Positions 6,316 to 31,386 are shown, counted from the stretch's first letter. The stretch is DNA of 64,000 bases from Actinomycetota bacterium (GCA_009726125.1 WLIT01000001.1:62001-126000), one strand, 5' to 3'. Translations and numbers: made by a program. The notes: a model not told the origin generated them from the letters alone.

Positions 6316-7693
6316 TTTTCCCAGCAAGCTTTACCGCTTCAGCAACCTTTGAAACAACTTGTACATCAAAAACACTTGGAATAATGAAGTTTGCATTCAG
6401 TTGTTCAGAGTTAACACAAGACGAAATCGCATCGGCCGCTGCAACCAACATCGCATCAGTGATTTTTGTGATTCGGCCATCTAGAAGTCCACGGAAGATT
6501 CCAGGGAATGCTAGAACATTATTAATTTGGTTAGGTTGATCACTTCTGCCGGTTGCGACAACTGCAGCGTATTTTCTAGCAATAGTTGGGTCAATTTCTG
6601 GATCTGGATTGGCAAGTGCAAAGACGATTGCTCCTGGAGCCATCGCAGCGATATCAGCTTCTTTTAAGACATTTGGCGCACTTACGCCGATAAAAATGTC
6701 AGCGCCTACCATTGCTTGCGCAATATCGCCTTTAAATTTGCCGGGTGCGCAATTATCAACAAACCAGGTACGCATCTCTTCATCGCCTTTTTTATGTTCA
6801 GAGACCAAACCATCTTTGTCGTATCCAATAATATTTTTTGCACCACGCGCAACAAGTAGTCTGGCGATTGCAGTACCTGCTGCTCCAGCCCCGCTCATAA
6901 CTATCTTCGCGTTAGCGAGATCTTTCTTAACAAACTTAAGAGCATTTGTTAGCGCTGCCAATACAACAATCGCAGTTCCATGTTGGTCATCATGAAAAAC
7001 TGGGATATCTAATAGGTCACGGAGTCGACGTTCTATTTCAAAACATCTTGGCGCAGAAATATCTTCAAGATTTATACCGCCATAAACTGGGGCAATAATT
7101 TGTACCGTTCGAACAATCTCATCAACATCTTGGGTATCTAAACAGACCGGCCAAGCGTCAACATCCGCAAAGCGCTTAAATAGCGCAGCCTTTCCCTCCA
7201 TGACAGGAAGCGCTGCTTCGGGCCCAATGTTTCCAAGACCTAAAACGGCTGAACCATCTGTAACAACAGCAACTGTATTTCGCTTAATTGTTAAACGGCG
7301 CGCATCAGATTTATCAGCGGCAATTGCCTGAGAAATTCTGGCAACACCAGGCGTGTAGGCGCGAGATAAATCATCGCGAGTTTTTAGCGGGACCTTTGAT
7401 TGAATTTCTATCTTTCCACCCAAGTGCAATAGAAAAGTTCTATCACTAACTTTGCGAACAATCAGATCAGGATGTCTCGCAATCGAAGCGGTGATTGCTT
7501 CGGCATGCTCGGCATCAATTGCATCGCAAGTTACATCTATTACTACGTGATCTAAGAAAGATTCAACAACATCAAGCGCAGTTATTGCTGCTCCGGCTGC
7601 AGTTATTGCTGTTGTAACTTCAGCAACAGGCTGGGCAGAAGGTGGACCCTCAACCCGAATTGTTATTCCATAACCAGGGCTAGTTGATGCCAT
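6305..7693 (-). CDS. NAD(P)-dependent malic enzyme with N-terminal ACT-like domain
   Basis: Oxidatively decarboxylates malate to pyruvate, linking the TCA cycle to pyruvate and NAD(P)H. It has 462 residues. Residues about 7-85 form an ACT-like regulatory domain (YGITIRVEGPP onwards). The catalytic part begins with SRAYTPGVARISQAI, followed by VTDGSAVLGLGNIGPEAALPVMEGKA, DDQHGTAIV, and the Rossmann loop SGAGAAGTAIARLL. The end PNQINNVLAFPGIFRGLLDGR is typical of the bacterial short form, which lacks the phosphotransacetylase domain of MaeB. It follows upp by 3 bp on the same strand, so the two are co-transcribed. Cofactor preference cannot be told from the sequence. Confidence 0.93.
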   Translation of the reverse strand: MASTSPGYGITIRVEGPPSAQPVAEVTTAITAAGAAITALDVVESFLDHVVIDVTCDAIDAEHAEAITASIARHPDLIVRKVSDRTFLLHLGGKIEIQSKVPLKTRDDLSRAYTPGVARISQAIAADKSDARRLTIKRNTVAVVTDGSAVLGLGNIGPEAALPVMEGKAALFKRFADVDAWPVCLDTQDVDEIVRTVQIIAPVYGGINLEDISAPRCFEIERRLRDLLDIPVFHDDQHGTAIVVLAALTNALKFVKKDLANAKIVMSGAGAAGTAIARLLVARGAKNIIGYDKDGLVSEHKKGDEEMRTWFVDNCAPGKFKGDIAQAMVGADIFIGVSAPNVLKEADIAAMAPGAIVFALANPDPEIDPTIARKYAAVVATGRSDQPNQINNVLAFPGIFRGLLDGRITKITDAMLVAAADAISSCVNSEQLNANFIIPSVFDVQVVSKVAEAVKLAGKTNA

Positions 7694-7696
7694 GGT

Positions 7697-8335
7697 TTAT
7701 ACAACTCCGTAAAGTCGGTCACCAGCATCGCCGAGACCAGGCACGATATATCCCTTTTCATTTAATTTTTCATCGAGTGCGCCAGTGACAATTGTGATTG
7801 GCAAATTCTTTCCGCCAAACTCTTTTTCTAACAGTGCAATTCCTTCAGGAGCAGCCAAAATTGTTATCGCGGTTATATCTGTTGCACCACGTTCAAGTAG
7901 GTAGTTAATAGCAGCGACAAGAGTTCCACCTGTGGCAAGCATTGGGTCAAGGATGTAGCACTGACGCCCAGTTAAATCATCAGGCAACCGGTTTGCGTAA
8001 GTGGATGGTTGAAGTGTGTCGTGATCACGAATCATGCCAAGAAAACCAACTTCAGCCGTCGGCATTAGCCGCGTCATTCCCTCAAGCATTCCAAGCCCCG
8101 CGCGCAAAATTGGGACAACTACAGGTTTTGGTTTTGTGAGTGCTACACCTTCCGCAATCGCAACTGGGGTTTTAACTTTTATTGGAGTTGTGCGCACCTC
8201 TCGAGTGGCTTCATAAGCGAGCAAGGTAACAATTTCCTCAGTCAATTGGCGAAAGGTCGGTGAGTTTGTTTTCTCATCCCGAAGAACGGTCAACTTATGT
8301 GCAAGTAATGGATGGTCCGCAACATGAATCTTCAC
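7697..8335 (-). CDS. upp: uracil phosphoribosyltransferase
   Basis: Salvages uracil to UMP using PRPP. The 212 residues match the family length. Conserved features are [16 protein letters not shown] near the start, [15 protein letters not shown], the PRPP-binding loop [15 protein letters not shown], and the C-terminal uracil-binding [16 protein letters not shown]. The start is a GTG at 8335 with AAGG about 9 nt upstream; no in-frame ATG gives a family-like N terminus. It is the first gene of a unit with malic enzyme and is divergent from the tadA pair. Confidence 0.95.
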
Positions 8336-8403
8336 GACTCATACCTTACTCGCGCGCAGTGGGCTTGTCGCTTGCCCGCTTTAGTGTCAGTATGAAGCCT
8401 TCA

Positions 8404-8430
8404 GAACATAGGAAACATGGGAAACATAGG
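8404..8430. repeat. three tandem 9-bp repeats, consensus AAACATRGG
   Basis: Units at 8404-8412, 8413-8421 and 8422-8430 differ at one or two positions. They lie just upstream of the GGGAGG Shine-Dalgarno (8435-8440) of the TadA-associated gene. If that gene instead started at the in-frame ATG at 8392, they would encode a basic HRKHGKHR stretch. They may be regulatory or merely a local duplication. Confidence 0.55.
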
Positions 8431-8448
8431 GTTCGGGAGGTGAGCGCA

Positions 8449-8907
8449 ATGGCTGAAGATTTTGGAATCATTGCGTGGCACGAAGAGGGTCGTTGGAATG
8501 TGGCAGAACTTACACATGCCAGAGATCTCGGTTCAATTATGGATCAACTTAATTTGCAGGCGACTAACGGTGGCGCAATCGCTCTGATTGCAATTGAAGA
8601 AGATTTTTTCTTAGTAGTACGAGCTCTTGGTTCACATATGCAGATGATGATTAGTGATGTTACATATGCACTTGAATCTGACCTCGCATCTGATTTGATC
8701 GAAGCTTTAGATTTACCGTTCCCTGAAGAGGATGATGATTCACAACCTGGTGGGGATATTGATTTACTCTCTGATTTAGGAATGAGTGCGATGGAACTTG
8801 AAGCGCTCTGTGATGACCCAGAACTTTTCCCTGATGAACAGCTGGATGCAATTGCTTCAAAGTTAGGGTTTGGAAATCAATTTGCCGAACTTTATGAAGG
8901 TCAATAG
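8449..8907 (+). CDS. tRNA adenosine deaminase-associated protein
   Basis: A small acidic protein of 152 residues beginning MAEDFGIIAWHEEGRWNV. It resembles the actinobacterial family encoded directly before tadA and named for that position; its biochemical role is not known to me. The middle contains a strongly acidic linker (PEEDDDSQPGGD), followed by a conserved helical end, LLSDLGMSAMELEALCDDPELFPDEQLDAIA. The ATG at 8449 is preferred because GGGAGG lies 8 nt before it. In-frame ATG codons at 8392 and 8260 would add non-conserved residues. The stop is 3 bp before the tadA start, indicating an operon. Confidence 0.82.
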   Translation: MAEDFGIIAWHEEGRWNVAELTHARDLGSIMDQLNLQATNGGAIALIAIEEDFFLVVRALGSHMQMMISDVTYALESDLASDLIEALDLPFPEEDDDSQPGGDIDLLSDLGMSAMELEALCDDPELFPDEQLDAIASKLGFGNQFAELYEGQ

Positions 8908-8910
8908 AGA

Positions 8911-9375
8911 TTGTCTTTAATTTCTAACTCTTACGAAGTAAAAATGCAGCAAGCGATTGAAGTTGCTAAATCTGCGCTCGCAACTGGCGATGTCCCAGTA
9001 GGAGCACTTGTATTCAATGCAAGTGGAAACTTAGTTGGTACTGGAAGCAACCGTCGTGAAGTTGATAAAGATCCAAGTGCGCATGCTGAAATTATCGCCC
9101 TTCGCGCCGCTGCACTTGCAAATAACTCTTGGCGCTTGGATGACCACACGATTGTTGTAACCCTTGAACCCTGCGCAATGTGCGCTGGTGCTATTGCACA
9201 AGCTCGGATTAAAACCTTAGTCTTTGGAGCATGGGACGAAAAAGCAGGAGCGGTAGGTTCAGTTTGGGATGTATTGCGCGATCCAAGGGCGCCGCATCTT
9301 GTTGAAGTAATTTCCGGTGTATATGAAAGTGAATGCGGCGCGCTATTAAGCGAGTTCTTTAAAAAATATCGTTAA
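8911..9375 (+). CDS. tadA: tRNA-specific adenosine deaminase
   Basis: Deaminates A34 to inosine in tRNA-Arg(ACG). Cytidine-deaminase fold, 154 residues: zinc ligand and proton shuttle in HAE (His58, Glu60), and PCAMC with zinc ligands Cys88 and Cys91. It also has the TadA-type segments GDVPVGALVF and ARIKTLVFGAWDEKAGAVGS. Its substrate, a tRNA-Arg with ACG anticodon, is encoded at 20278 in this window. The start is taken as TTG at 8911 with GAAGG 10 nt upstream. An ATG at 8944 would remove 11 residues and remains possible. It is coupled to the preceding TadA-associated gene. Confidence 0.93.
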   Translation: MSLISNSYEVKMQQAIEVAKSALATGDVPVGALVFNASGNLVGTGSNRREVDKDPSAHAEIIALRAAALANNSWRLDDHTIVVTLEPCAMCAGAIAQARIKTLVFGAWDEKAGAVGSVWDVLRDPRAPHLVEVISGVYESECGALLSEFFKKYR

Positions 9376-9408
9376 CAAGCAGCGCGAAGGCTCGGTTACT
9401 CTTATCTC

Positions 9409-10245
9409 ATGACAACTTACGCATACCTGGGTCCTGCAGGGACTTTCACAGAGGCAGCGTTGCGCCAGATTTCAAAGGCCGAAGATATTTTGGTTCCCTA
9501 TTCAAATGTCACCGCTGCGCTTGATGCAGTGCGTGAAGGCAAAGCTGAAAAAGTATTAGTACCAATTGAAAATTCAGTTGAAGGGGTTGTCTCAAGGACG
9601 CTTGATGAGCTCGCTGTTGGTACACCTTTAGTTGTCACAGCAGAAACAACGCTTCCGGTCTCATTCTCCCTAATGATTTTGCCAGAGAACGCCGGTAAGC
9701 CAATTACAAAGATTGCAACTCATCCACATGCCGAAGCGCAGTGTCGGTCATATGTTGCAAAAAATTATCCGCAGGCAGAAATAATTGAAATGTCATCGAC
9801 CGCCGCCGCAGCTAAAGGTTTAAACGATGGTAATTATGATGCGGCTATTGCCTCTGAAATTGCTGCAGCAAATTATGGCTTAAAGGTTATTGCCAGTGAT
9901 GTCGGTGATAACAATGGCGCAGTAACAAGATTCGTCATCGCCCAAAAACCTGGTGCAACTCCAAAACCAACTGGGAATGATCGCACCTCACTTGTTGCTT
10001 TTATCGGGATTGATCATGCAGGTGCGCTTCTTGAAATTCTCACTGAATTTGCAAAACAAGATGTGAATTTAACTTTTCTTCAATCTCGCCCAACTGGTCG
10101 CGAACTTGGCCATTACCATTTCATAATTGACGCCGAAGGCCATATTGATGAACCTAAAGTTGCTACCGCCGTTGAAGGCGTTCGCAAAATTTGTGAAGAC
10201 ATTCGTTTTCTTGGTTCATATCCCCGTGTTAGCAAAAGTAACTAG
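9409..10245 (+). CDS. pheA: prephenate dehydratase
   Basis: Converts prephenate to phenylpyruvate in phenylalanine synthesis. It has 278 residues and no chorismate mutase domain. The catalytic domain starts [15 protein letters not shown] and has [11 protein letters not shown] and the [10 protein letters not shown] segment holding the conserved TRF catalytic motif. An ACT domain from about residue 190 ([22 protein letters not shown]) carries LQSRPTG, corresponding to the ESRP feedback-inhibition motif with Q replacing E. The ATG sits 6 nt after TACTCT with no Shine-Dalgarno, so a leaderless transcript starting here is likely. serS follows after 14 bp. Confidence 0.94.
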
Positions 10246-10259
10246 GTAGGCTTGAACAC

Positions 10260-11525
10260 GTGATTGATTTAAAAATACTGCGCGAAAATCCTGATGCAGT
10301 ACGCCACTCCCAAAAAGTCCGTGGTGAAGATCAGGCGGTCGTTGGTCAACTTCTAGAAGCAGATGCGATAAGCCGCACAGCGCTAAGTGAATTTGAAACC
10401 TTACGTGCGCAACAGAACGCACTATCTAAATCAGTTGGTGCTGCAAAGGGCGAAGAAAAAGCGGCTCTGTTAGAAAACGCAAAAGATCTTGCTGACCGAG
10501 TTAAAGCCGCCGATTCAAAACGGAGCGAACTTGAAGAGGTTGCACGTGGGTTACTGTTAAAAATTTCTAACCTTATTGATTTAGAGGCACCAGTTGGTGG
10601 CGAAGCAGATTTCAAAGTTATCGAAGAGATTGGGAAGCCTCGAGATTTCAAGAGTGAGGGCTTCCCGCCGAAAGATCACGTTGAGCTCGGAAAAATCTTA
10701 AAGGCAATTGATACCGAGCGCGGCGCTAAGGTCGCAGGCTCTCGCTCCTATTATTTAACTGGCCCAGGAGCCATGTTGGAATTCGCACTAGTTAATTTTG
10801 CAATTACATCTGCAGTGAAAGCCGGATTTATTCCAGTTATTCCACCCGTACTTGTAAATCCAGCAGCGATGGAGGGCACAGGCTTTCTTGGCCAAGCAGC
10901 AGAAAATGTTTATCACTTAGAAGAAGATGATCTTTATTTAGTTGGAACTAGTGAAGTCCCACTCGCTGCGTATCACATGGATGAAATTGTTGAGAACTTA
11001 CCAATTCGATATGCCGGTTATTCTTCATGTTTCCGCCGCGAAGCCGGTACTTACGGCAAAGATACCCGCGGAATTATTCGCGTACACCAATTCGATAAAG
11101 TTGAAATGTTCTCATTCATTAAACCTGAAGATGCAAAGGCCGAACACCTTCGACTTCTTGAGTGGGAGAAAGATTTCCTAAGAGCAATGGAAGTCCCATT
11201 CCGCGTAATAGATGTTGCATCTGGTGATTTAGGTTCAAGTGCGATTCGTAAGTTTGATTGTGAAGCTTGGATTCCTACCCAAGGCGCTTATCGTGAAGTA
11301 ACGAGCACCTCTAATTGCACAGAATTTCAAGCTCGCCGCTTAAATATTAGATACCGAGATGAGAGTGGAACCAAGCCTGTGGCAACGTTAAATGGCACCT
11401 TAGTCGCAGTACCAAGAATGATTGTTGCGATTCTTGAAAATCACCAGAATAAAGACGGCTCCATAAATATTCCAAAGGCACTTCGTCCTTTCTTGGGCGT
11501 GGATACTTTGGTGCCTTCTCTATGA
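10260..11525 (+). CDS. serS: seryl-tRNA synthetase
   Basis: Class II synthetase of 421 residues charging tRNA-Ser; two tRNA-Ser genes occur nearby at 12366 and 18856. The N-terminal [22 protein letters not shown] is typical, followed by the long antiparallel coiled coil (about 30-105) that grips the tRNA long arm. Motif 2 is [22 protein letters not shown] and motif 3 is [18 protein letters not shown]. The start is GTG at 10260, preceded by AGGTAGG. The stop overlaps the next gene by ATGA. Confidence 0.96.
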
Positions 11526-12340
11526 TTTCCGGTAAACGCCCTAAGTTAATTGCAACTGATTTAGATGGAACGATTGTTCCGCACCTAGGCCCAATTTCAG
11601 ATCGCACAATTGCCGCATTTAAAAAAGCCCATGGGCTTGGTATCGAAATATTTTTTGTGACTGGCCGTCCACCACGTTGGATGGTTGATATAAGAGAAGC
11701 TTTCGGTTTCGGTGATGCAATATGTGCAAATGGCGCACTCTTATATGATTTAATGAACGATAAAGTATTAGAAGAATGGCTGATGCCAACTGAGATTCAA
11801 TTAGAAATTATTAAGCGCTTGCGAATTCGTCTTCCAGGAATCCAATTTGCCCTTGAATATGGCGATGAATTTCACCGTGAAAAGCACTACACAACTAAGT
11901 GGGATATTGGCCGAGATAACGTTGGCGTAGATTCGATTGAAGAGAAGATAACTGAGCCAGCATTTAAGATGTTGGCCCGTTGTGTAAATAATGAATTTAC
12001 CTCAGATCAAATGTTAGAAATTGCAATACGGGAACTTCCTGGAATTGCAAACATCACTCATTCAAATTCAGATGATTCCCTTATTGAAATCTCCGCACTT
12101 GGTGTAAGTAAAGGTGAAACTCTTGCGAAGATGGCAGAACGTGCTGGCTTAACTGCTGATGATTGCGTCAGTTTCGGTGATAACCCAAATGATTTCTCGA
12201 TGTTGCAATGGACTGGGCGATCATGGGCGATGTCAGATGGTCATCCCGACGGCCCGAAGTATGCAAAATTTGTGGCCGATGCCCATCACCACGATGGCGT
12301 TGCAATCGTCATCGAAGCGCTGCTCGAATTGCCCGCTTAA
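11522..12340 (+). CDS. HAD-superfamily (Cof-like, type IIB) phosphatase
   Basis: A 272-residue soluble hydrolase with motif [10 protein letters not shown] (nucleophile Asp), motif II in FFVTGRPP, a cap domain of the IIB type in the middle, the lysine in SKGETL, and motif [13 protein letters not shown]. Proteins of this group dephosphorylate sugar phosphates or cofactors such as FMN or PLP; the substrate cannot be named. The ATGA overlap with serS indicates co-translation. Actinobacterial serS genes are commonly followed by such a HAD gene. Confidence 0.87.
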
Positions 12341-21423: not shown

Positions 21424-22596
21424 GTGGCTAAAAAAATAATTGTGCATGCTGGTTTCCATAAAACTGGCACGACTGCGATTCAATCTAGTTTCTTCGCTGC
21501 CACAAAAGCTTTGGAGAGTGCGGGAATTACTTATCCGCACGTTGGAGGAAAGGCACACCATAAAGCGGTGTATTCCTTTATGGGAAAGACTTGGGGCTGG
21601 GAAGATCGTGGTGGAATTACCGCAACAGATAAGAAATGGCGCCAATTCTTAAAGCAGATAAAAAAAGCCAAATCAACGGCCCTGATTAGTTCAGAGTTCT
21701 TATGCGAATTAACTGAAGAGCAGATAATAAAATTTAAGAGAGATCTTGGAAATTCTGATGTAACAATTTATTTCACGCTTCGCCCACTTCTAAAGATTAT
21801 TCCTTCGGCATATCAACAACATCTTAAAATTGGAATAAAAAGCAGTTATGAGACGTGGCTACATTCAATCTTGGATGAACCTGGGGTTTCGACCATCACT
21901 CCATCATTCTGGGTTCGCCACATGCATAGCGAAGTCTTAGCAAAGTGGATAAAGCATTTTGGTAAAGAGAATGTGGTCTTACTTGTGGTGGATGAGAAGA
22001 AGCCAGAGTTTATGTACGAGCAATTCAATCTATTACTAGGGCTGAAGCCAGGATTCTTAACGCCGCAAACTGATCAAGATAGCAACCGGTCACTTACTCT
22101 CGATGAAATTACTTTACTTAATACAATAAATAAGAAATTTTCAAAGAAACGTAGTTGGCATGATTATGAAACCTTTATCCGCAACGGTTCGATAAAATAC
22201 TTAACGAATAAGGTCACGCCACCGATTGATGCCGTGCGATTATTGACGCCACAGTGGGCGGTAGATATTGCTAAAAGAGTGTCCAGCGCGAGTGTTGCAG
22301 AGATAAAAAGGCTCGGAATCAAAATTATCGGGGAGATTGATTCTTTTGAGAGCGCGGAGATCCCTGTTGGTGAGAATCCTGAAGTAACAATGATTCCAGT
22401 TGAACTAGCTGCCAAAGCGCTAGTGGCAATGGATCTGCGGGTTGTTGAAAAACTTCCTACTAGGTATGTGGCAAGAATTCTTTGGAAGATGACTAAACGA
22501 GATTTAAAGAGGCTTTTGCGCAATCAATTCAAGATTTTCTCGTCACCGAAACTTCACCTTCAGTCCTTTTCGAATTTCCTATCCGCTTGGCCTTAG
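21424..22596 (+). CDS. sulfotransferase-family protein
   Basis: A soluble protein of 390 residues. The N terminus KKIIVHAGFHKTGTTAIQ contains the 5'-phosphosulfate-binding loop (H-K-T-G-T-T) of PAPS-dependent sulfotransferases, and the stretch from STALISSEFL through IYFTLRPLLKIIPSAYQQHLK fits the 3'-phosphate-binding region with its conserved Arg and Ser. The C-terminal half has no recognised motif. A GTG at 21424 is chosen because it sits directly before the conserved first strand; TTG at 21373 would overlap the previous gene. It opens the envelope locus that runs to 30.5 kb. The acceptor is unknown. Confidence 0.75.
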   Translation: MAKKIIVHAGFHKTGTTAIQSSFFAATKALESAGITYPHVGGKAHHKAVYSFMGKTWGWEDRGGITATDKKWRQFLKQIKKAKSTALISSEFLCELTEEQIIKFKRDLGNSDVTIYFTLRPLLKIIPSAYQQHLKIGIKSSYETWLHSILDEPGVSTITPSFWVRHMHSEVLAKWIKHFGKENVVLLVVDEKKPEFMYEQFNLLLGLKPGFLTPQTDQDSNRSLTLDEITLLNTINKKFSKKRSWHDYETFIRNGSIKYLTNKVTPPIDAVRLLTPQWAVDIAKRVSSASVAEIKRLGIKIIGEIDSFESAEIPVGENPEVTMIPVELAAKALVAMDLRVVEKLPTRYVARILWKMTKRDLKRLLRNQFKIFSSPKLHLQSFSNFLSAWP

Positions 22597-22623
22597 TTAA
22601 TAAGAGCTCTCTATTTTTCTCCT

Positions 22624-24465
22624 ATGAGCACACTGGATTTTCAAGGCAAGGAAGTTATTGCCGCCCTTGAAAGCCAGTTCCAGCCAAAGATAAAAGCCCA
22701 AGAAAAGCCAGAAATACGAATCACCAACGCAATTGTCTGCTCTTTCTTCACCAGCGATGAATATTACAAAGCGCATGGGGCTCGACTTCAATCAAATTTG
22801 GAAGAGCTTGGAATTGAATACGACCTCCGTGAAATAACAAAAAAAGAGGGCGAAGATTGGGCCGCTATATGTCGCAGGAAAGTTGGGTTTATCGCAGAAG
22901 TATGTGCGAAGAACCCAGATAAAAAAGTATTCTGGATTGACGTTGATTGCGAACTATTTTCTATTCCTGATTTTATTTTGAATTCCACTGCGGACCTGAT
23001 CGGATTTCAACGAGGATTTAGCAATCCAACAAAAATTGGATATCAAAACCGAGGCCGATTTTGGGAACCTTGCTTCTGGGGAATAAATAACACTGACCAA
23101 GCACGCAAGATGATTAGCGCAGCAGCAGAATTCGAAGAGATCGCAACAGTTCGCGCAACCGATGACTATTTCTTTGAAGAGGCATGGCGCGCAACTTCCG
23201 GAAATATGACCTTCCAAATAATTCCATCAAATTGCGCAGTTGATAAGGGCGCAGGATCACTCGAAAGCCATGAGGTCTTCTTTAGATTTGGATCGAGTGG
23301 ACAAGTCGAAAACTTTAAGAGCGTTGTTGAACAACACAAAGGCAACACCGCTAAACGCTTCTTGAATCCAAAGCGAGAATTACTTAGGTTTGCAAAACTA
23401 GTTGAAGAGAAATTGCCCTTAGGAATTTCTACCAAATTACGGTTAGTCATCGATGCCTCAGGAATAACCGGCTTCTTGACTGGCAAAAGCCACAATAATA
23501 TTAATAATCAAACAATTACGAAATTAGTTACAGCTGGGAAAACTGGCGATCTCGCTGGATTTAACTCTTCACTAACTCACTTTAAGCGCAAAGCTCTGCC
23601 AAATAGATATGAACAGGCGGCGATAAAAGTTGCATCAAGTTACCTTTCATATTCCGCTAAACCAAGTAAGAACGAAGTATTTCTATCTTGGTGGGAAAAT
23701 CCTTATCCAGGAAACTTTGGCGATTGGTTGACTCCCTTTATTTTTAATCATTACACCGAAAATAAAATAATTTTCCAGAGCCTCACAAATCGGACTAATA
23801 AAAACCACATTGTTAGTCTTGGGTCAGTTGGAAGATTCGTTAAATCAAACTCAATAGTTGTTGGAACTGGCGTTAGTTCATATAAGCATGCGCTAAATCC
23901 AAAGGCTGACTACATTTCAGTACGTGGACCGCATACCGCCAAATTGTTAGCGGATTCTGGCGGCCCACAAGTTACTAGTTTCGGTGATCCAGGCGTTGTT
24001 CTATCACGAATATTGCCCTTTAGTCGTGGTAAGACAAATGGTCGTATCGCACTTGTTCGACATTACACACATGTCCAAGCACCAGTTAGATTGCCAGATA
24101 ATTTTGATGAATTATCAATTCAAATTTCTCATCCAAATGATGTGATTGCATTTTTCGAAAAATTGAATGAATATGAGAGCGTTGTTACAAGTGCTATGCA
24201 CGTAATGATTACCTGCCAAAGTTATGGAATTCCTTGTGCACTTATCGTGTTTAAGGGCTTTGAAGAGTACGTTCACGGAACCGGCATTAAATATTCTGAT
24301 TATGCGCTGGGCGCTGGCGTTCCAGTAATGGATCCAACCCCGATCAACCCTAAATTAGATATGGCAGAAATTGAACCTATAACTTTCACTCACAAGGTTT
24401 CGGAAGCGAAGATTGATGAAGTCGAGGCGGCGATTCGCGAAAGTTTGAAGAGATTTAAAAAGTAA
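22624..24465 (+). CDS. fusion protein: GT-A-like glycosyltransferase plus polysaccharide pyruvyltransferase
   Basis: A 613-residue protein in two parts. Residues about 33-260 look like a nucleotide-sugar transferase fold: VFWIDVDCELFSIPD places a DxD metal site at 106-108, with RATDDYFFEEAW downstream. Residues about 350-590 resemble the polysaccharide pyruvyltransferase family: WWENPYPGNFGDWLTPFIF, VVGTGVSSY, SVRGPHTAKLLADSG, FGDPGVVLSRILP and VVTSAMHVMITCQSYGIP. The protein could add a sugar and then a pyruvate ketal to the same glycan (inference). The ATG lies 6 nt after TATTTT with no Shine-Dalgarno. It ends exactly against the convergent cytidylyltransferase gene with no spacer. Confidence 0.75.
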   Translation: MSTLDFQGKEVIAALESQFQPKIKAQEKPEIRITNAIVCSFFTSDEYYKAHGARLQSNLEELGIEYDLREITKKEGEDWAAICRRKVGFIAEVCAKNPDKKVFWIDVDCELFSIPDFILNSTADLIGFQRGFSNPTKIGYQNRGRFWEPCFWGINNTDQARKMISAAAEFEEIATVRATDDYFFEEAWRATSGNMTFQIIPSNCAVDKGAGSLESHEVFFRFGSSGQVENFKSVVEQHKGNTAKRFLNPKRELLRFAKLVEEKLPLGISTKLRLVIDASGITGFLTGKSHNNINNQTITKLVTAGKTGDLAGFNSSLTHFKRKALPNRYEQAAIKVASSYLSYSAKPSKNEVFLSWWENPYPGNFGDWLTPFIFNHYTENKIIFQSLTNRTNKNHIVSLGSVGRFVKSNSIVVGTGVSSYKHALNPKADYISVRGPHTAKLLADSGGPQVTSFGDPGVVLSRILPFSRGKTNGRIALVRHYTHVQAPVRLPDNFDELSIQISHPNDVIAFFEKLNEYESVVTSAMHVMITCQSYGIPCALIVFKGFEEYVHGTGIKYSDYALGAGVPVMDPTPINPKLDMAEIEPITFTHKVSEAKIDEVEAAIRESLKRFKK

Positions 24466-25161
24466 TTACTTCAAGCCTTCATTTGCGCGATCTAAATCCG
24501 CCTGAAAATCAACTTCAACGGCGAAGAGATCAGAGATATCAACTGGTTCTAGCTTAATACCATCTTTTTCGATTGCTAACTCGAGTCCGCGTTCAAAGTA
24601 ATCTTGATCGGCACAGGCTTCGAGTTGCTTGATTACATCTGCTTTTTCAGATGCAGAAATAAAGTTTATGCCAACAGCCTCACCTAAAGCGTTCTGAACC
24701 GTCTTTGAAAGTTCTTTGATGAAACCTTTTTCATCTACGGTGTATTTAACTTCCTCTTCCGCGGTTGTAGAAGTATTTACGCAAACAAAAGATTTCTCAG
24801 ATTTAATGCGATCTGCAATGCGTTCTAATACTTTGGCATCAAAAACTACATCACCATTTAGCCATAAAACTCCAGATTCTTGGCTTGCACGAAGTGCCTT
24901 TAATAAACTTTTCGAGGTATTTGTTTGATCATAAACTTCGTTGTAAACGAAAGACGCAGTTGGATGTGCTTCAATAATCATTTCTAATTTAAAACCAACT
25001 ACAACAGTGATTCGAGCTTTATCGCCAAATACTTTTGAAACATTTTCCATTTGTTGCTGCATGATTGAACGGCCATCAGATAAAACAGTAAGAGGCTTTG
25101 GCCAAGGTTTACCCAATCTAGTTCCCATGCCAGCTGCCAGAATTACAACTTGAATTGCCAT
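24466..25161 (-). CDS. sugar/polyol-phosphate nucleotidyltransferase (probable cytidylyltransferase)
   Basis: A 231-residue GT-A-fold nucleotidyltransferase. The nucleotide-binding start VVILAAGMGTRLGKPWPKPL (catalytic Arg15 and Lys22), NTSKSLLKAL and WLNGDVVFD (metal Asp) resemble choline- or inositol-phosphate cytidylyltransferases. Its likely product is a CDP-alcohol for the two CDP-alcohol phosphotransferases encoded divergently at 25.2-27.6 kb; the exact alcohol is unknown. The ATG at 25161 is chosen because GAAGG lies 5 nt before it; the GTG at 25173 would place that site inside the gene. A TATAGA hexamer (25185-25180) is a plausible -10. This is the only gene of the locus on the minus strand. 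Confidence 0.8.
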   Translation of the reverse strand: MAIQVVILAAGMGTRLGKPWPKPLTVLSDGRSIMQQQMENVSKVFGDKARITVVVGFKLEMIIEAHPTASFVYNEVYDQTNTSKSLLKALRASQESGVLWLNGDVVFDAKVLERIADRIKSEKSFVCVNTSTTAEEEVKYTVDEKGFIKELSKTVQNALGEAVGINFISASEKADVIKQLEACADQDYFERGLELAIEKDGIKLEPVDISDLFAVEVDFQADLDRANEGLK

Positions 25162-25223
25162 CTCTACCTTCACAACCCATCTATAGCTAAAGAATCCCTG
25201 TTAGGCACGATAGATTACCGCTT

Positions 25224-26849
25224 ATGGCCGTAAATCTTAGAACTCTAGAAGTTAATCGGGGAACCAGGATTGACGATGTATTGAAAGCCTTCGAATCAGG
25301 GAACCAAGATCTGTTACTGGTTGATGAAAATACAGTAGTAACTAAGCCTCATATGGAGTTACTAACCGATTATCCCCGAAGTGTGACGACAGCCTTAGTG
25401 ACCAAAATAAAGGATGGCGATACTCGCGTAGGTGGTTCTCGGATTACTGGAGCGAGTTCCGGATTTCATGAAGTTGGATACGGTAATCACAATTTTCTTG
25501 GCGCAATTCGACTCTCACAATCCCAGCGAGTCGAAATCATCAAAACACTTTCAGATATTTCAAATACAAGCCATTCTGGATTAGCTATCGACCTAATTTT
25601 GGTTGGCTTAGTTCGTGACACAATTTTGGTGGCTTCGGCCGAAGTTGTGGGAGCTCCTTGCGCTAGAAGTACTGAAAAATTAGAGCGCGATCGAGTAGCT
25701 GGAGAAATCGCAGCGCTAAACGATGCCAGGCTTCGGCTGAAGATTGCTAATCGAGCGAATGATGGGTTCTACTCAGTCTTCTTTCTTCGCAAGATATCCA
25801 AGATTTTTACTGGGCTTGCAGTGCGTTTAAAAATGACACCGAATCAGGTAACTCTAATTTCCTTTGCCATCGGGCTATTTTCGGCGTATGAATTCAGCAA
25901 AGGAACTTTTTGGACAATATTTGCTGGCGCAGTACTTTTACAACTCAGCATCATTATCGATTGTGTCGATGGCGAACTTGCAAGGTACACCCGGCAATTT
26001 TCACAGCTAGGCGCTTGGCTTGATGCAATTACGGATCGGATAAAAGAGTACTTAGTCTTTTATGCACTCGCTTATGGCGCTGCAAAACAAGGTCGAGATT
26101 TATGGATTCCTGCAATTGGAATGATGATTTTTCAAACCTTCAGACATCTTTCCGATTACAACTTCGCCCGGATAAATAAGTTCAGAACTCCAGAGCCAGT
26201 GGCAATATCTTTTGATCTTAAATCTGATGGCTACATTGTTGTAGAACGCGAAAAGCGCTCGCGCTTTGAATATTGGTCTAAAAAAGCGGTGCAATTTCCA
26301 ATTGGTGAACGTTGGCTGGTCATAAGTGCTTCCTCAGTTATAGGGGGCGCCGTCTTTACCTTCACGATAATGCCGATTCTCTCGCTGATTTCAGTAGCTT
26401 TAGTCTTTAGAGCCCGAGTACGTAAAACGCTAACTTGGCCAAAATTTAGAGTTAATAAAGAATTTATTGATGATCAATTAGATTCAATTAAGAATAAAAA
26501 TTCAACAAATCGCTTTGATTGGCTTGAGCCATCAATCCTGCGCCTTGTTGAAGGCCTGATCTTCGTCGAGCTCGCTATCATCAGTGATATAGATCGTTCA
26601 CAAATTTTCCTACTTGTCTTCGCAATTATCTTCAATCATTACGACAATATGTATCGTGCACTACAAGGTGAACGAAAGCCCAAATGGATAGCAATAGCAG
26701 GCGGATTTATCTTTGGCCGTTTACTAGTAACTCTAATTTGGGTCACGCTCGGTTTATCAATAACGATTCTCGTCTATTATTTCTCAATACTTTTCTTTCT
26801 TATTTCTTCAGTACAGTGGATTCAAAGCCACAGAGTTAAGGTGGCCTAA
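25224..26849 (+). CDS. CDP-alcohol phosphotransferase with extra N-terminal domain (DUF5941-like)
   Basis: A 541-residue protein. Residues about 1-145 form a soluble domain without recognisable catalytic loops, perhaps a degenerate nucleotidyltransferase. From about 185 onward it is a membrane enzyme with the complete motif D246-x2-D249-G-x2-A-R254-x8-G263-x3-D267-x3-D271, followed by several membrane segments. The C-terminal third has a further group of hydrophobic helices. The family transfers a phosphoalcohol from CDP-alcohol to a second alcohol, forming phospholipids or phosphodiester glycans. Bifunctional cytidylyltransferase-phosphotransferases exist for inositol phosphate; here the active cytidylyltransferase seems to be the separate divergent gene. 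Likely leaderless: TAGATT ends 7 nt before the ATG. Confidence 0.8.
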   Translation: MAVNLRTLEVNRGTRIDDVLKAFESGNQDLLLVDENTVVTKPHMELLTDYPRSVTTALVTKIKDGDTRVGGSRITGASSGFHEVGYGNHNFLGAIRLSQSQRVEIIKTLSDISNTSHSGLAIDLILVGLVRDTILVASAEVVGAPCARSTEKLERDRVAGEIAALNDARLRLKIANRANDGFYSVFFLRKISKIFTGLAVRLKMTPNQVTLISFAIGLFSAYEFSKGTFWTIFAGAVLLQLSIIIDCVDGELARYTRQFSQLGAWLDAITDRIKEYLVFYALAYGAAKQGRDLWIPAIGMMIFQTFRHLSDYNFARINKFRTPEPVAISFDLKSDGYIVVEREKRSRFEYWSKKAVQFPIGERWLVISASSVIGGAVFTFTIMPILSLISVALVFRARVRKTLTWPKFRVNKEFIDDQLDSIKNKNSTNRFDWLEPSILRLVEGLIFVELAIISDIDRSQIFLLVFAIIFNHYDNMYRALQGERKPKWIAIAGGFIFGRLLVTLIWVTLGLSITILVYYFSILFFLISSVQWIQSHRVKVA

Positions 26850-26852
26850 CTT

Positions 26853-27635
26853 ATGACATCTCAACCAATCAGACCTTTAAAACCAACCATCGCGCAAATT
26901 CGCGAGATTTCACAGCCAGTTTCAGTAACTGGCCGATCAACTTCAGAACATTGGGTAGCCGATCTTTATCAGAGAAAAATTTCTGTTTACTTAACGCGCT
27001 TATTCTTGCGGACACCGATTACTGCAAATGGCGTAACTTGGTTGATGGTAATTGTCGCTGCATCTATTGGACCCGCACTTCTAATCCAAGGGTGGGTTGG
27101 AATAGCACTCGCCTTATTTTTAAGCCACCTTCAAATGCTTATTGATTGCTGTGACGGTGAAGTTGCAAGATGGCGAAATACAAAATCACCAATGGGAATT
27201 TTTCTCGATAAATTGGGACATTATGCTGCAGAAGGCTTAATTCCAATTTTCTTTGGCTTACGACTGGCTGGCTGGCCAGAGCGCCCAATAACTGGATCGA
27301 TTTATCCTTACCTTGGAGCGTTGTTAGCTGGAATTATTATTGTAAATAAAGGTTTGAATGATGCAGTTCATGTTGCGCGAGCTTTCTCTGGGTTAACAAA
27401 AATCCAGGATACAAAGGACGCAAACCTTCCACTAAAAGGGGCGCTTCGCACTGCCCGCAAAATATTCAAATTCATCCCAATTCAAAGAATTTTTCATTCC
27501 ATTGAATTCACCATTTTCATAGCGCTCTTTGGTTCTTACCCACTCTCGCTTGAAATTGCGCTTGGGCTAGCGCTTTTTGTGACAGTTGGGCATATCGCAG
27601 CAATCGTTTCTTCGGCAAAGTTAAGGAATAATTGA
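26853..27635 (+). CDS. second CDP-alcohol phosphotransferase, with His at the fourth acidic position
   Basis: A 260-residue membrane enzyme 3 bp after the previous gene. The motif reads D98-x2-D101-G-x2-A-R106-x8-G115-x3-D119-x3-H123: the last aspartate of the family motif is histidine. The following hydrophobic helices fit the six-helix fold. In the structurally known family members the fourth Asp is thought to act as the general base, so the change may alter the acceptor or mechanism, or mark a subfamily. The pair of related enzymes suggests two successive phosphoalcohol transfers or a heteromeric enzyme (inference). Confidence 0.8.
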   Translation: MTSQPIRPLKPTIAQIREISQPVSVTGRSTSEHWVADLYQRKISVYLTRLFLRTPITANGVTWLMVIVAASIGPALLIQGWVGIALALFLSHLQMLIDCCDGEVARWRNTKSPMGIFLDKLGHYAAEGLIPIFFGLRLAGWPERPITGSIYPYLGALLAGIIIVNKGLNDAVHVARAFSGLTKIQDTKDANLPLKGALRTARKIFKFIPIQRIFHSIEFTIFIALFGSYPLSLEIALGLALFVTVGHIAAIVSSAKLRNN

Positions 27636-27638
27636 GAT

Positions 27639-28409
27639 ATGCGCGCGATACTCGGTCAACTCAAATCAGCTTTGCTACAACTATTTCCAACGACAAAACA
27701 TCGTTTGATCTTGATAAGCCTAGTTTTGATTGCTGCATTTATATCAGTATCTGAACTTGCTGTCGCAAAGTTGTTTACCCAAATAATTTTGCACGAGGGC
27801 GATATGTCTCGCTCGCAATTAATAATTTTCATTGTTGGCTTCTTTGTATTTTTCGGAGCTACAAGAGCGGGCCATTATTTCCAAAGAATTTATCGTGTCA
27901 ATGTCTTCGACCGTGCTTTTAAAGCTTCAGAAGTAGAAATTCATCGGAGCAAAGAGAATTGGCGCTGGTCACTGGCATTTGAACTAACTACGCTCCTAAG
28001 TATTTTTACTCAAATGGGAGTAATTATTATCTTTTTCACATTTCTAAATTGGAAGTTTGGCTTACTTAATATCTTTGTTGTTATGGTAATTTTCCAAATA
28101 CTGGGCCGTATCTTTCGAAAGCAGATGAAAACTCAACGCGGATTTGTTAAAGCAAAGGTAAGAAAAGAGCACATTCCAAGTTCGGTAAAGATTGGAACTC
28201 GAATCAAATCCGGAGAGATCGGTATTTTGTTATCTGGAATCGCAATGTTGACGCTCTTTGCTGCTCTAATATTTCTGAGCTATAACGGGGAAATTACCCC
28301 ATCAAATACCATCGTCCTATTCTTTGGACTTAGAATGCAGAATTCAAACCTCTCAAATATTTCAAGTGGTTTGATGAGATTTGCAAGGGCCAGAACACAT
28401 AGTGAATAG
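27639..28409 (+). CDS. membrane protein resembling an ABC-exporter transmembrane domain without ATPase
   Basis: A 256-residue protein with about five or six hydrophobic segments (near 21-42, 61-82, 115-155 as a pair, 198-235). The overall length, the loop QRIYRVNVFDRAFKA and the end FGLRMQNSNLSNISSGLMRFARARTH resemble an ABC exporter transmembrane domain up to the point where the nucleotide-binding domain should begin. No Walker motifs follow in any frame; the next gene, a glycosyltransferase, overlaps the end. It may be a transporter half using a separate ATPase or a relic repurposed as a scaffold. Function not assigned. Confidence 0.6.
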   Translation: MRAILGQLKSALLQLFPTTKHRLILISLVLIAAFISVSELAVAKLFTQIILHEGDMSRSQLIIFIVGFFVFFGATRAGHYFQRIYRVNVFDRAFKASEVEIHRSKENWRWSLAFELTTLLSIFTQMGVIIIFFTFLNWKFGLLNIFVVMVIFQILGRIFRKQMKTQRGFVKAKVRKEHIPSSVKIGTRIKSGEIGILLSGIAMLTLFAALIFLSYNGEITPSNTIVLFFGLRMQNSNLSNISSGLMRFARARTHSE

Positions 28410-29154
28410 TGAAAATCTCTTAACAATTGGGTATTCAACACTTTCAGATAGAGCACAAAACATTAAATTCATTGCAGGTGTAACAAATTTAGTTATTGTT
28501 CAGAATCCAAAATCAGATCTAATGCCAACTTTCCCTTCCGAAGTCTCAGTAACTGAATTAAAGAGCCAAGGGGTAACTAAGAGTCGCAATGCCGCAATTA
28601 CCAATGCAACTGGGAAGTACTTACTTTTTGGCGACGATGATCTGGAATTCAAGCCATCGGGTATTCAGGAAGTAGTTATATATCTAGAAGCAAATCCACA
28701 GATTTCGATTGTTTTGGCACAGGCAGTAAATGAGAAAGGCGAATTACGTAAGGCGTATCCCAAGAATTCACACTCTCTTAAACTTCGAAATTCAGCTAAA
28801 GCTGCAACCTATGAGATGTTTATCCGGTTGGCGGATTTCAAAAGGTTAGATATCAAATTTGATGAAAATTTTGGCGCAGGATCAGAAAACTACTTGGGAG
28901 ATGAATACATTTTGATAGCAGATGCACTCCGTTTGGGATTAAAGGGAACGTTCCTTCCAATAATTGTTGCGATGCATCCAGCAGATAGTTCCGGAAATCT
29001 AAAAAATACCAGAAAAGATATATCTGCTCGCTCACAAGTTTTCACCAGAGTTTTTGGCATATGGGCGATTCCCATGAGGTTAGGATTTCTAGTTAAACCA
29101 CCATTTAAGAAATTTGGAATCCTAAATTCAATTCGATTCATAATTGGTAAATGA
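28402..29154 (+). CDS. family 2-like glycosyltransferase
   Basis: A soluble protein of about 250 residues. The GT-A core is visible in LTIGYSTLSDRAQNIKF, GVTKSRNAAITNATGKYLLFGDDDLEF (the substrate helix and the D-D-D metal site) and the C-terminal GSENYLGDEYILIADALRLG with the likely catalytic acidic residues. The sugar and acceptor are unknown. The GTG at 28402 overlaps the end of the previous gene by 8 bp; a TTG at 28381 is an alternative start. It overlaps the next gene by ATGA, so 26.8-30.5 kb is one tight unit. Confidence 0.75.
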   Translation: MNSENLLTIGYSTLSDRAQNIKFIAGVTNLVIVQNPKSDLMPTFPSEVSVTELKSQGVTKSRNAAITNATGKYLLFGDDDLEFKPSGIQEVVIYLEANPQISIVLAQAVNEKGELRKAYPKNSHSLKLRNSAKAATYEMFIRLADFKRLDIKFDENFGAGSENYLGDEYILIADALRLGLKGTFLPIIVAMHPADSSGNLKNTRKDISARSQVFTRVFGIWAIPMRLGFLVKPPFKKFGILNSIRFIIGK

Positions 29155-29825
29155 AAGTATTCGCTCATCGTGGAGCATCGGGTCGATCGCCCGAGATGTC
29201 TTATGCTGCATATCTCGCAGCAATCGAAGATAAAGCTGATGGTTTTGAGTGTGATGTTAGATTAACTCTCGACCAAGAAATTGCCTGCTTTCATGATGCG
29301 GATACCGCGAGAATTGCTGGCATAAAACACAAGGTTTCAAAGAGTCAATTTAGTAAGATGCAGAACTTAGTTGCGGCTATATCTTTAGACCAACTCCTTA
29401 CCCTCGCTATTATTAATAAGAAGGATCTATTAATTGAAAGTAAGCACCCAGTTGCATCTGGTGGGGCGGTTGAAAGGAAAATATTAGAACTTCTTTATCG
29501 TCGAAGTTCAGAAATATCCGAATCTGGAATTGAAGTCATTTGTATGTCATTTTCCTGGTTTGCAGTTAAGCGATTTAAGAAATCACACAAGGCTTGTACT
29601 GTTGCAAAGTTCTATCTTCAAGCACTTGTTGCTCCAACTCAGATTGTCGCGCTTCATATTGAGCTCATAAAAAAATATCCCAAGTTGGTGACTCGATTGC
29701 AAAACCGAGGTAAGCGGCTATTTGTTTGGACCGTTAATGCCAGTAGCGATCTAAAATTTTGTAAGGATCTAGGTATTGAAGGAGTAATAACTAATTACCC
29801 GGATAAAGCGCGGAAGTATGTCTAA
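29151..29825 (+). CDS. glycerophosphodiester phosphodiesterase family protein
   Basis: A 224-residue TIM-barrel hydrolase without signal peptide. KVFAHRGASGRSPEMSYAAY has the catalytic HRG, FECDVRLTLDQEIACFHDAD supplies the E-x-D metal site and second His, and LLIESKHP and FVWTVNASSDLKFCKDLGIEGVITNYPD complete the family pattern. It cleaves glycerophosphodiesters to glycerol-3-phosphate and an alcohol. In this locus it may recycle or trim a phosphodiester product of the CDP-alcohol enzymes (inference). Its end overlaps the next gene by 8 bp. Confidence 0.88.
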   Translation: MKVFAHRGASGRSPEMSYAAYLAAIEDKADGFECDVRLTLDQEIACFHDADTARIAGIKHKVSKSQFSKMQNLVAAISLDQLLTLAIINKKDLLIESKHPVASGGAVERKILELLYRRSSEISESGIEVICMSFSWFAVKRFKKSHKACTVAKFYLQALVAPTQIVALHIELIKKYPKLVTRLQNRGKRLFVWTVNASSDLKFCKDLGIEGVITNYPDKARKYV

Positions 29826-30492
29826 AGAGCAGAGCCGCTTTTTACTTGGTGTAATTGCCTATCTATCATTAGTTTTCTATATATTTGGCTTAGCCGGAAC
29901 TGGTTCAGTCCAGGATCCAGTTTCAGCGCCTGCTCCTGCTCCTGCTCCTGCGACAGAGCTTCTCTGCTTTAATTTGGAATCCAAGGTTCTAAGAGCGAGT
30001 GATTCGAATTTGGGCTGTTTACTTGAGGAAGAATCTTTAGGGGATTCACCAATTAAGCATGAAGATATTCGCCCAAACGCATTAAATCCTATTGTCGAGG
30101 TTCGCTTTTTGGCAGCCCAGGCGGCGGCGAAAGCAGCTGGTTTTTCAATAAGAATTACATCTGGCTTTAGATCACAAGCGTTACAAGAAAAGTTATTTGG
30201 AGATGCGATAAAAAAATATGGGAGTGAAGAGGAAGCCTCAAAATGGGTATTACCTAAAGATATTTCGCATCATCCATGGGGTACCGCAATCGATGTAAAT
30301 TATCCCGGAGATAAAACCGCTGTTAAATGGTTAGAAGATAATGGCTCATTATTTGGACTTTGCCGCGTTTACGAGAATGAATGGTGGCATTTTGAACCAA
30401 TAATCGCACCTGGAGATACTTGTCCAGCAATGATGGTTAACGCTCTAGAAAGTTTAGAGCAATCACCTACTGGCGCGAATGATTCAAATTAA
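29818..30492 (+). CDS. VanY-type D-alanyl-D-alanine carboxypeptidase, membrane-anchored
   Basis: A 224-residue protein with an N-terminal membrane anchor (about 9-27) followed by an APAPAPAPA linker (37-45) and an extracytoplasmic VanY/peptidase M15 domain. The zinc-site blocks are present: ITSGFRSQALQ, SHHPWGTAIDVN (His and Asp ligands) and NEWWHFEP (catalytic Glu/His). It trims D-Ala from peptidoglycan stem peptides or cleaves a related substrate at the cell wall. As the last gene of the envelope locus it suggests that the locus product is attached to, or made near, peptidoglycan (inference). Confidence 0.87.
   Translation: MSKEQSRFLLGVIAYLSLVFYIFGLAGTGSVQDPVSAPAPAPAPATELLCFNLESKVLRASDSNLGCLLEEESLGDSPIKHEDIRPNALNPIVEVRFLAAQAAAKAAGFSIRITSGFRSQALQEKLFGDAIKKYGSEEEASKWVLPKDISHHPWGTAIDVNYPGDKTAVKWLEDNGSLFGLCRVYENEWWHFEPIIAPGDTCPAMMVNALESLEQSPTGANDSN
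29926..29952. repeat. Pro-Ala hexanucleotide repeat in the VanY linker
   Basis: About four copies of a 6-bp unit (CCTGCT) encode alternating Ala and Pro directly after the membrane anchor. Such linkers hold an extracellular domain away from the membrane; the exact DNA repeat can change length by slippage in steps of two residues without frameshift. Confidence 0.75.
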
Positions 30493-30504
30493 TATACTTA
30501 CAAC

Positions 30505-31386
30505 ATGACAATTCAAATTCCAAATAAATTAGGTGTTCATGCTCTTGTATGGGTTGGTGGCTGGTCCCACGCAGAATGTCGCGAGGCAATTCAAAATACC
30601 GTTGAAGCGGGATACGATTTAATCGAAATTCCTGCACTCGACCCTTCGCTTATCGATACCAAACACACACTTGCAACTCTAAAAGAATTTGGAATTAAAG
30701 CCGCTTGCTCACTCGGCCTCTCATTTGATGCAGATATTAATAACGAAGATTCAGCAATTGTTGCTAAAGGTGAAGCGAAATTAATGGCTGCGCTAGATGT
30801 AGTTGCAGCTATCGAGGGAGATTACCTAGGCGGCGTATTATTTAGCGCCCTTGGAAAATATTCACATGCTGCTACTGAAAAATCTCGTGCGAATTCGGTG
30901 GCCTCATTAAAGCGCCTAGCAATTGCGGCACAGGCAAAGGGAATAACAATTGGGTTAGAGCCAGTTAACCGTTATGAATCAAATTTGATTAACACAATCG
31001 ATCAAGCAGTTGCCATGATTAAAGATATTGGTGAGCCAAACGTTAAGGTTCATATCGATATTTACCATATGAATATCGAAGAGCAGGATCTAGCATCACC
31101 AATCATTAACAACGCTGAACACATTGGTTATGTTCATATTGGGGCAAGCCACCGAGGCGGACTTGGAACCGGAAACGTTGATTTTGATGAACTATTTGGT
31201 GCCCTCGCAAAGATCAACTACAAAGGCGTTATTACCTTTGAGAGTTTCTCATCCGCGATTGTTCATCCAGACTTATCTCTTGCCTTGGCGATTTGGCGTA
31301 ACCTTTGGACTGAGAACAAGCCAATGGCGCTAAGTGCTCGCAAGTACATGGTGGAACATATTGTTCGTGCCAATAAACTTGCTTAA
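30505..31386 (+). CDS. sugar phosphate isomerase/epimerase (ketose 3-epimerase-like TIM barrel)
   Basis: A soluble 293-residue protein of the xylose-isomerase-like TIM-barrel family. Metal ligands are visible as Glu152 (GLEPVNRYESN), Asp185 (VHIDIYHMN), His211 (YVHIGASHRG) and Glu246 (TFESFS), the arrangement of D-tagatose/D-psicose 3-epimerases. The exact sugar is unknown. The ATG is 6 nt after TATACT with no Shine-Dalgarno, so it starts its own, probably leaderless, unit and is separate from the envelope operon before it. It is convergent with manA, with one base between the stops. Confidence 0.82.
   Translation: MTIQIPNKLGVHALVWVGGWSHAECREAIQNTVEAGYDLIEIPALDPSLIDTKHTLATLKEFGIKAACSLGLSFDADINNEDSAIVAKGEAKLMAALDVVAAIEGDYLGGVLFSALGKYSHAATEKSRANSVASLKRLAIAAQAKGITIGLEPVNRYESNLINTIDQAVAMIKDIGEPNVKVHIDIYHMNIEEQDLASPIINNAEHIGYVHIGASHRGGLGTGNVDFDELFGALAKINYKGVITFESFSSAIVHPDLSLALAIWRNLWTENKPMALSARKYMVEHIVRANKLA

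Follow-up and report, generated by a model that had tools for sequence, protein, structure and literature searches.

The closest described analogue of the locus reported here lies in Streptomyces, where a synteny survey (2026) found a CDP-alcohol phosphatidyltransferase, a family-2 glycosyltransferase (GT2), a nucleotidyltransferase, tagG, tagH and araM together, the duplicated clusters of that region being related to teichoic acid biosynthesis (PMC13118837), a role that is itself a prediction from synteny. The window analysed here, a 64,000-nucleotide stretch from an Actinomycetota bacterium (GCA_009726125.1 WLIT01000001.1:62001-126000), has the nucleotidyltransferase, CDP-alcohol phosphotransferase and GT2 in common with the Streptomyces region, and its deeper relatives share the ABC-2 permease and ATPase as well; however, the window lacks AraM and TagGH and carries a sulfotransferase, an exporter domain without an ATPase and a glycerophosphodiesterase (GDPD). 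Since the matching region is filed under teichoic acid biosynthesis, we place the core of the window's locus near a teichoic-acid-like system. The initial annotation knew of no pathway that had been described with precisely these components. For the exact set this remains true, but its core is similar to the Streptomyces region, and the cassette is therefore a variant rather than unprecedented. Our literature search, partial in its coverage, returned nothing relevant on sulfated teichoic acid.

Wall teichoic acid systems of the tag/tar type offer a second comparison. The locus would share with them the logic of a CDP-activated polyol, its source genome encodes an LCP-family protein, and its deeper relatives have PF04464 and TagGH-like genes. 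It differs in being built around CDP-alcohol phosphotransferases, in having no TagD-type enzyme among the locus genes and in including a sulfotransferase. Our essential contention is that the cassette probably makes and translocates a sulfated, phosphodiester-linked surface product, either a glycopolymer or a glycolipid, with kinship to teichoic acids.

The source genome (G000) comprises about 1.3 Mb in 32 contigs and is 94.8% complete; its relatives include metagenome-assembled genomes (MAGs) labelled Nanopelagicales and Planktophila. All nine open reading frames of the initial annotation, g1 to g9 in order, are present with the coordinates and strands claimed for them. The tight spacing reported for the last part is also borne out: g4/g5 and g5/g6 are separated by 3 bp, g7 overlaps g8 by 4 bp and g8 overlaps g9 by 8 bp, while the g6/g7 overlap is 8 bp if g7 begins at the GTG at 28402, or 29 bp from a TTG at 28381. 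Pfam agrees with the domain identities given for g3, g4, g5, g7, g8 and g9 (NTP_transf_3, CDP-OH_P_transf twice, Glycos_transf_2, GDPD and VanY).

A neighbourhood search, named beforehand as a possible refutation, indicates that g3, g4 and g5 form a unit. With g4 as the query against 251 genomes of the order, clear orthologues were found in about 45, the remainder giving weak matches to other phosphotransferases, and the distribution of the cassette is accordingly patchy. Nearly all of 36 fetched loci combine a divergent g3 with tandem g4 and g5, even where the orthologues share as little as 35% identity. Three loci deviate: in L065 the contig starts within g4, in L066 it stops short of g5, and L064, an own-genome locus, carries an unrelated phosphotransferase. 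Two loci (L042, L043) have the shuffled order g3-g5-g6-g4-g7 with all members kept, and the core set thus survives rearrangement. The association of g3, g4 and g5 exceeds chance, although the genomes are mostly MAGs and related, so that counts are not independent and absence from an incomplete genome is provisional. Two sub-types can be recognised. Sub-type A, that of the window, comprises 24 loci with g6 and g7, of which 18 also have g8; sub-type B differs in its GT2, and some of its genera place a TarF-like gene, assigned to PF04464 on the strength of a homologue, between g3 and g4.

The cassette's location is also informative. In G069, a cassette-free genome of the same genus, the flanking genes (an ABM-domain protein on one side, and PMI, MFS and permease-like genes on the other) enclose unrelated genes in the cassette's place, which points to gain or loss of the cassette at one fixed position. 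The replacing genes encode a secreted-looking protein of 542 aa and a membrane protein of 121 aa (L215:9907-11915). Among the loci recovered, one MAG (G202) combines two loci on different contigs, one of sub-type A in which g4 is split and one of sub-type B (L044, L061), and may represent mixed strains. Four records titled Bifidobacterium breve or Clavibacter (L074, L080, L087, L094) contain Nanopelagicales-type loci, and their titles look mislabelled.

More distant loci show what the core is associated with beyond these sub-types. A scan of genome contigs identified 13 deeper loci with one repeated order, consisting of a nucleotidyltransferase and a TarF-like gene (PF04464) on one strand, and an ABC2_membrane permease, ABC ATPase, sulfotransferase, g4, g5 and GT2 on the other. 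Streptomyces-like loci, meaning those of large, high-GC genomes, and other distant loci combine g4, an AraM-type dehydrogenase (Fe-ADH_2, PF13685), g5 and GT2, often with an ABC-2 permease and ATPase; a nucleotidyltransferase was recognised in three of them (L183-L185), gene calling in high-GC loci being crude.

The nucleotidyltransferase g3 (24466-25173, minus strand) belongs to NTP_transf_3 (PF12804, E 8e-18) and resembles MobA, LicC and PntC. It diverges from g4 in essentially all loci, and the 50 bp between the two genes (25174-25223) probably hold a shared promoter, judging from the flanking coordinates. Among its orthologues the motif LAAGMGTRLG is invariant and YNExxDxTNTSKSL is conserved. 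Several nucleotidyltransferase families match g3 about equally, so that CTP and a polyol phosphate are no more than putative substrates. The best PDB match in profile comparison is PntC (6pd1, E 2e-8), and this is what favours surface tailoring with phosphonate or phosphocholine, in which g3 would be a PntC/LicC-type enzyme activating 2-aminoethylphosphonate or phosphocholine. We consider this very improbable, given that the partner of the nucleotidyltransferase in the deeper loci is a TarF-like enzyme or an AraM-type dehydrogenase; a phosphonate product in particular is rejected, PEP mutase (PF13714) having no match in the source genome.

The first CDP-alcohol phosphotransferase, g4 (25224-26849, plus strand), contains PF01066 and a C-terminal membrane domain, DUF5941 (PF19365), for which our partial literature search found no paper. 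The signature DxxDGxxARx8GxxxDxxxD is complete in the g4 copies recovered by a signature scan. The structural model of g4 combines a cytidylyltransferase-like N-terminal domain with a CDP-alcohol phosphotransferase, and its best fold matches are IPCT-DIPPS (4mnd, the top match) and AF2299 (4o6m) of Archaeoglobus fulgidus, which have the same two-domain fusion. Unlike these, g4 has the additional DUF5941 domain, a separate nucleotidyltransferase in g3 and a place in an envelope locus. Its N-terminal domain retains the cytidylyltransferase fold without the LAAGxGxRL signature, which g3 carries separately; the two are related by fold alone, their profiles aligning weakly (hhalign probability 4).

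The initial annotation had named di-inositol phosphate among the products of such enzyme pairs, and a di-inositol-phosphate or phosphoinositide-type solute would follow if g3 served as a cytidylyltransferase for inositol-1-phosphate and g4 acted as DIPP synthase. The 4mnd match points this way, as does the best NCBIfam match of g4, the bifunctional IPCT/DIPPS family (E 7e-22). However, g4 scores 78 bits against an equivalog cut-off of 580 bits, and inositol-1-phosphate synthase (INO1, PF01658) was not found in the source genome, which is approximately 95% complete, leaving uptake as a possible supply of inositol. The neighbours are also glycosyltransferases, a sulfotransferase and exporters rather than solute genes. 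The comparison is weakened by the low score and the missing synthase, and we regard a solute of this type as highly unlikely. Glycerol is most likely a better candidate than inositol for the CDP-activated polyol: glycerol phosphate is favoured by the likeness of g4 to AF2299, which accommodates CDP-glycerol (PMC4634129), by the GDPD, by the TarF-like and AraM-like partners in relatives, and by a gpsA-like gene read from the sequence of the source genome.

The second phosphotransferase homologue, g5 (26853-27635, plus strand; PF01066), presents a puzzle, in that the fourth aspartate of its signature, the catalytic base, is replaced by histidine in all orthologues of the order and by alanine in three Streptomyces-like loci. 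Replacing this residue with asparagine nearly abolishes the activity of a PIP synthase (PMC4634129). Since the residue is missing from g5, the protein may serve as a partner or regulator, or may itself catalyse altered chemistry.

The sulfotransferase-like gene g1 (21424-22596, plus strand; 390 aa from a GTG start) has no Pfam match of its own; the case for a PAPS-dependent enzyme comes from motifs and co-occurrence. Two motifs are invariant in its family, HxGxHKxGTxAxQ, which is 5'-PSB-like, and TxRxLx5SxxQQxLK, which is 3'-PB-like, and nine of 14 members match Sulfotransfer_1 weakly (best E 4e-4, below the Pfam cut-off), in line with the original description of g1 as sulfotransferase-like. 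Of 80 genomes surveyed, 38 carry g4 and 28 of these have the family, whereas it is absent from all 42 genomes that lack g4 (Fisher p 1.6e-13, kinship ignored). APS kinase, counted at E<1e-60, is present in 27 of the 28 cassette genomes with the sulfotransferase and in none of the ten without (Fisher p 2.3e-8, kinship ignored); the single discrepant genome is 79% complete. Four genera hold both states, and sulfotransferase and APS kinase agree within each, bar one incomplete genome. The kinase also occurs in 12 of the 42 cassette-free genomes, for other reasons.

Physical linkage points the same way. In three loci, cysD, cysNC and TauE-like genes lie directly 5' of a g1-family gene, and on another contig of the source genome, outside the window, cysD, a cysN-cysC fusion, a TauE/SafE-like permease and a second g1-family sulfotransferase form an operon (G000:C2:31581-36069; L202 about 7570-12154). 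CysD is the sole PAPS_reduct-family match in the source genome, in which no separate PAPS reductase was found. Assimilation therefore does not appear to consume PAPS there, which agrees with the reported absence of assimilatory sulfate reduction from four sequenced acI strains (PMC5301498). Compared with known PAPS-dependent sulfotransferases that accompany cysD-cysNC operons, the g1 family has similar PSB/PB-like motifs and the same co-occurrence with PAPS synthesis, but is diverged, falls below Pfam thresholds and is tied to the g4 cassette. Sulfation of the cassette product is well supported as a prediction from these patterns. It is nevertheless a common rather than an obligatory feature, since ten of the 38 cassette genomes keep the core without g1. 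In L043, cysD-cysNC lies immediately 5' of the cassette between two different g1-family sulfotransferases (1009-2124 and 5851-6963).

The membrane protein g6 (27639-28409, plus strand) has no Pfam match. It was originally described as ABC-exporter-like without an ATPase, and this agrees with its AlphaFold model (pLDDT 86), which has the six-helix transmembrane domain of an ABC exporter and for which the best Foldseek matches are all ABC exporters. The reading frame stops after helix 6, before any ATPase, and none is fused to it or present among the locus genes; g6 is conserved with g7 in 24 loci. Together with a phosphotransferase lacking its fourth aspartate, an exporter domain without an ATPase makes a second concrete mechanistic puzzle. 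Three loci of one genus (L050, L053, L065) have other genes with unassigned products downstream of the GT2, namely c60, with an ABC-ATPase-like C-terminus, c61, encoding a membrane protein, and c62, encoding a secreted protein rich in proline and glutamine; no relation between g6 and the ABC-like proteins c60 and c61 was detected with hhalign.

The remaining genes differ in how closely they follow the core. The glycosyltransferase g7 (28402-29154, plus strand, taking the GTG as its start in a frame that opens at 28381; PF00535, E 3e-9) shows kinship with the GT2 that the deeper sub-type carries (hhalign probability 78). The GDPD-like gene g8 (29151-29825, plus strand; PF03009, E 1e-27) adjoins the cassette in 18 loci from two genera, and its product has no evident signal peptide when read by eye. 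The accessory gene g2 (22624-24465, plus strand) was annotated as a fusion of glycosyltransferase and pyruvyltransferase; the latter is confirmed in its C-terminal part (PF04230, E 2e-10, residues 396-541), while the N-terminal half has a DxD-like motif and is possibly a glycosyltransferase, an identity left unconfirmed by the lack of any significant match. The VanY-type D,D-carboxypeptidase g9 (29818-30492, plus strand; PF02557, E 4e-14) adjoins the cassette only in the window's genus group, being found in other positions elsewhere, and is rejected as a core part; it is a neighbour that is probably outside the pathway. The fusion g2 occurs in ten of the 24 sub-type A loci, and pyruvylation is likewise rejected as a core function; it is predicted to be an optional addition. 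The anionic envelope product first proposed is thus retained as a sulfated, CDP-alcohol-derived phosphodiester, on the evidence of conserved gene order, the linkage to PAPS and the TarF-like and TagGH-like genes of relatives, but without pyruvate or VanY at its core.

In proposing a mechanism we start from what is directly observed, that is, gene content, conserved linkage, motifs, co-occurrence and the structural similarity of g4 and g6. First, g3 would combine CTP with a small phosphorylated polyol, glycerol phosphate being the likeliest, to give a CDP-polyol, from which g4 would transfer the polyol phosphate to the hydroxyl of an alcohol or a sugar on the inner face of the membrane. With its metal-binding aspartates kept and its catalytic base lost, g5 may act as a partner subunit or as a phosphotransferase with altered chemistry. 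Sugars or pyruvate ketals would be added by g7 and sometimes g2, and sulfate by g1, with the cysD-cysNC operon on another contig providing the PAPS. Translocation would involve g6 as a membrane component replacing the ABC-2 exporter of deeper relatives. Glycerophosphodiester by-products may be trimmed or recycled by g8, and the one LCP-family protein encoded in the genome (PF03816, G000:C1:54257-54766, E 7e-41) might attach the product to the wall.

We infer all of these enzymatic steps, as well as the polyol, the acceptor and the nature of the product as polymer or lipid head group, from sequences and models. A PF04464 polymerase was not found in the source genome, the window's locus has no TagGH-like transporter, and neither of the genome's two other ABC-2 permeases shows detectable similarity to the permease type found in the deeper loci; a TarF-like polymerase or TagGH encoded elsewhere in the genome was consequently discarded as an explanation, and a long polymer is not established. 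Nor is glycerol-1-phosphate supplied by an AraM-type enzyme in our reconstruction, because the only PF13685 match in the source genome is under the cut-off, so that the polyol would need another route. With neither a PF04464 enzyme nor an AraM match over the cut-off, the product may be short or lipid-bound. The missing polymerase would suit a membrane glycophospholipid, with g4 and g5 making a lipid head group that g7 glycosylates, g1 sulfates and g6 flips. The resemblance of g6 to lipid-flipping ABC exporters such as MsbA, the kinship of g4 with PIP synthases and the membership of g8 in a family acting on deacylated phospholipids are all compatible with this. However, g4 best fits AF2299 and DIPPS, which are described as processing no lipids (PMC4634129), and the fuller relatives contain TarF-like and TagGH-like genes; we therefore think a glycophospholipid unlikely and prefer the teichoic-acid-related product. 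Its most specific form, a wall polymer made by a CDP-alcohol phosphotransferase pair, with one canonical member and one lacking the catalytic aspartate, in place of TarF-type polymerases, exported through an ABC-exporter domain whose ATPase has been lost and decorated with sulfate activated for the surface only, is doubtful as a complete scheme.

Nanopelagicales, or acI, are among the most abundant freshwater bacteria and, to our knowledge, little is known of their surface chemistry. If the proposed pathway is correct, cells described as lacking assimilatory sulfate reduction activate sulfate at the cost of ATP solely for their envelope. The presence or absence of the cassette among close relatives at a conserved site is what might be expected of a trait selected by phages or grazers, although this is speculation. 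The cassette offers direct markers, a sulfate ester and a phosphodiester, together with a natural comparison between strains, through which a hidden surface chemistry becomes testable. One further gene lies 12 bp 3' of g9, at 30505-31386 in the window, and encodes a protein resembling sugar epimerases and hydroxypyruvate isomerases; it is conserved only near the window and is probably unrelated to the cassette.
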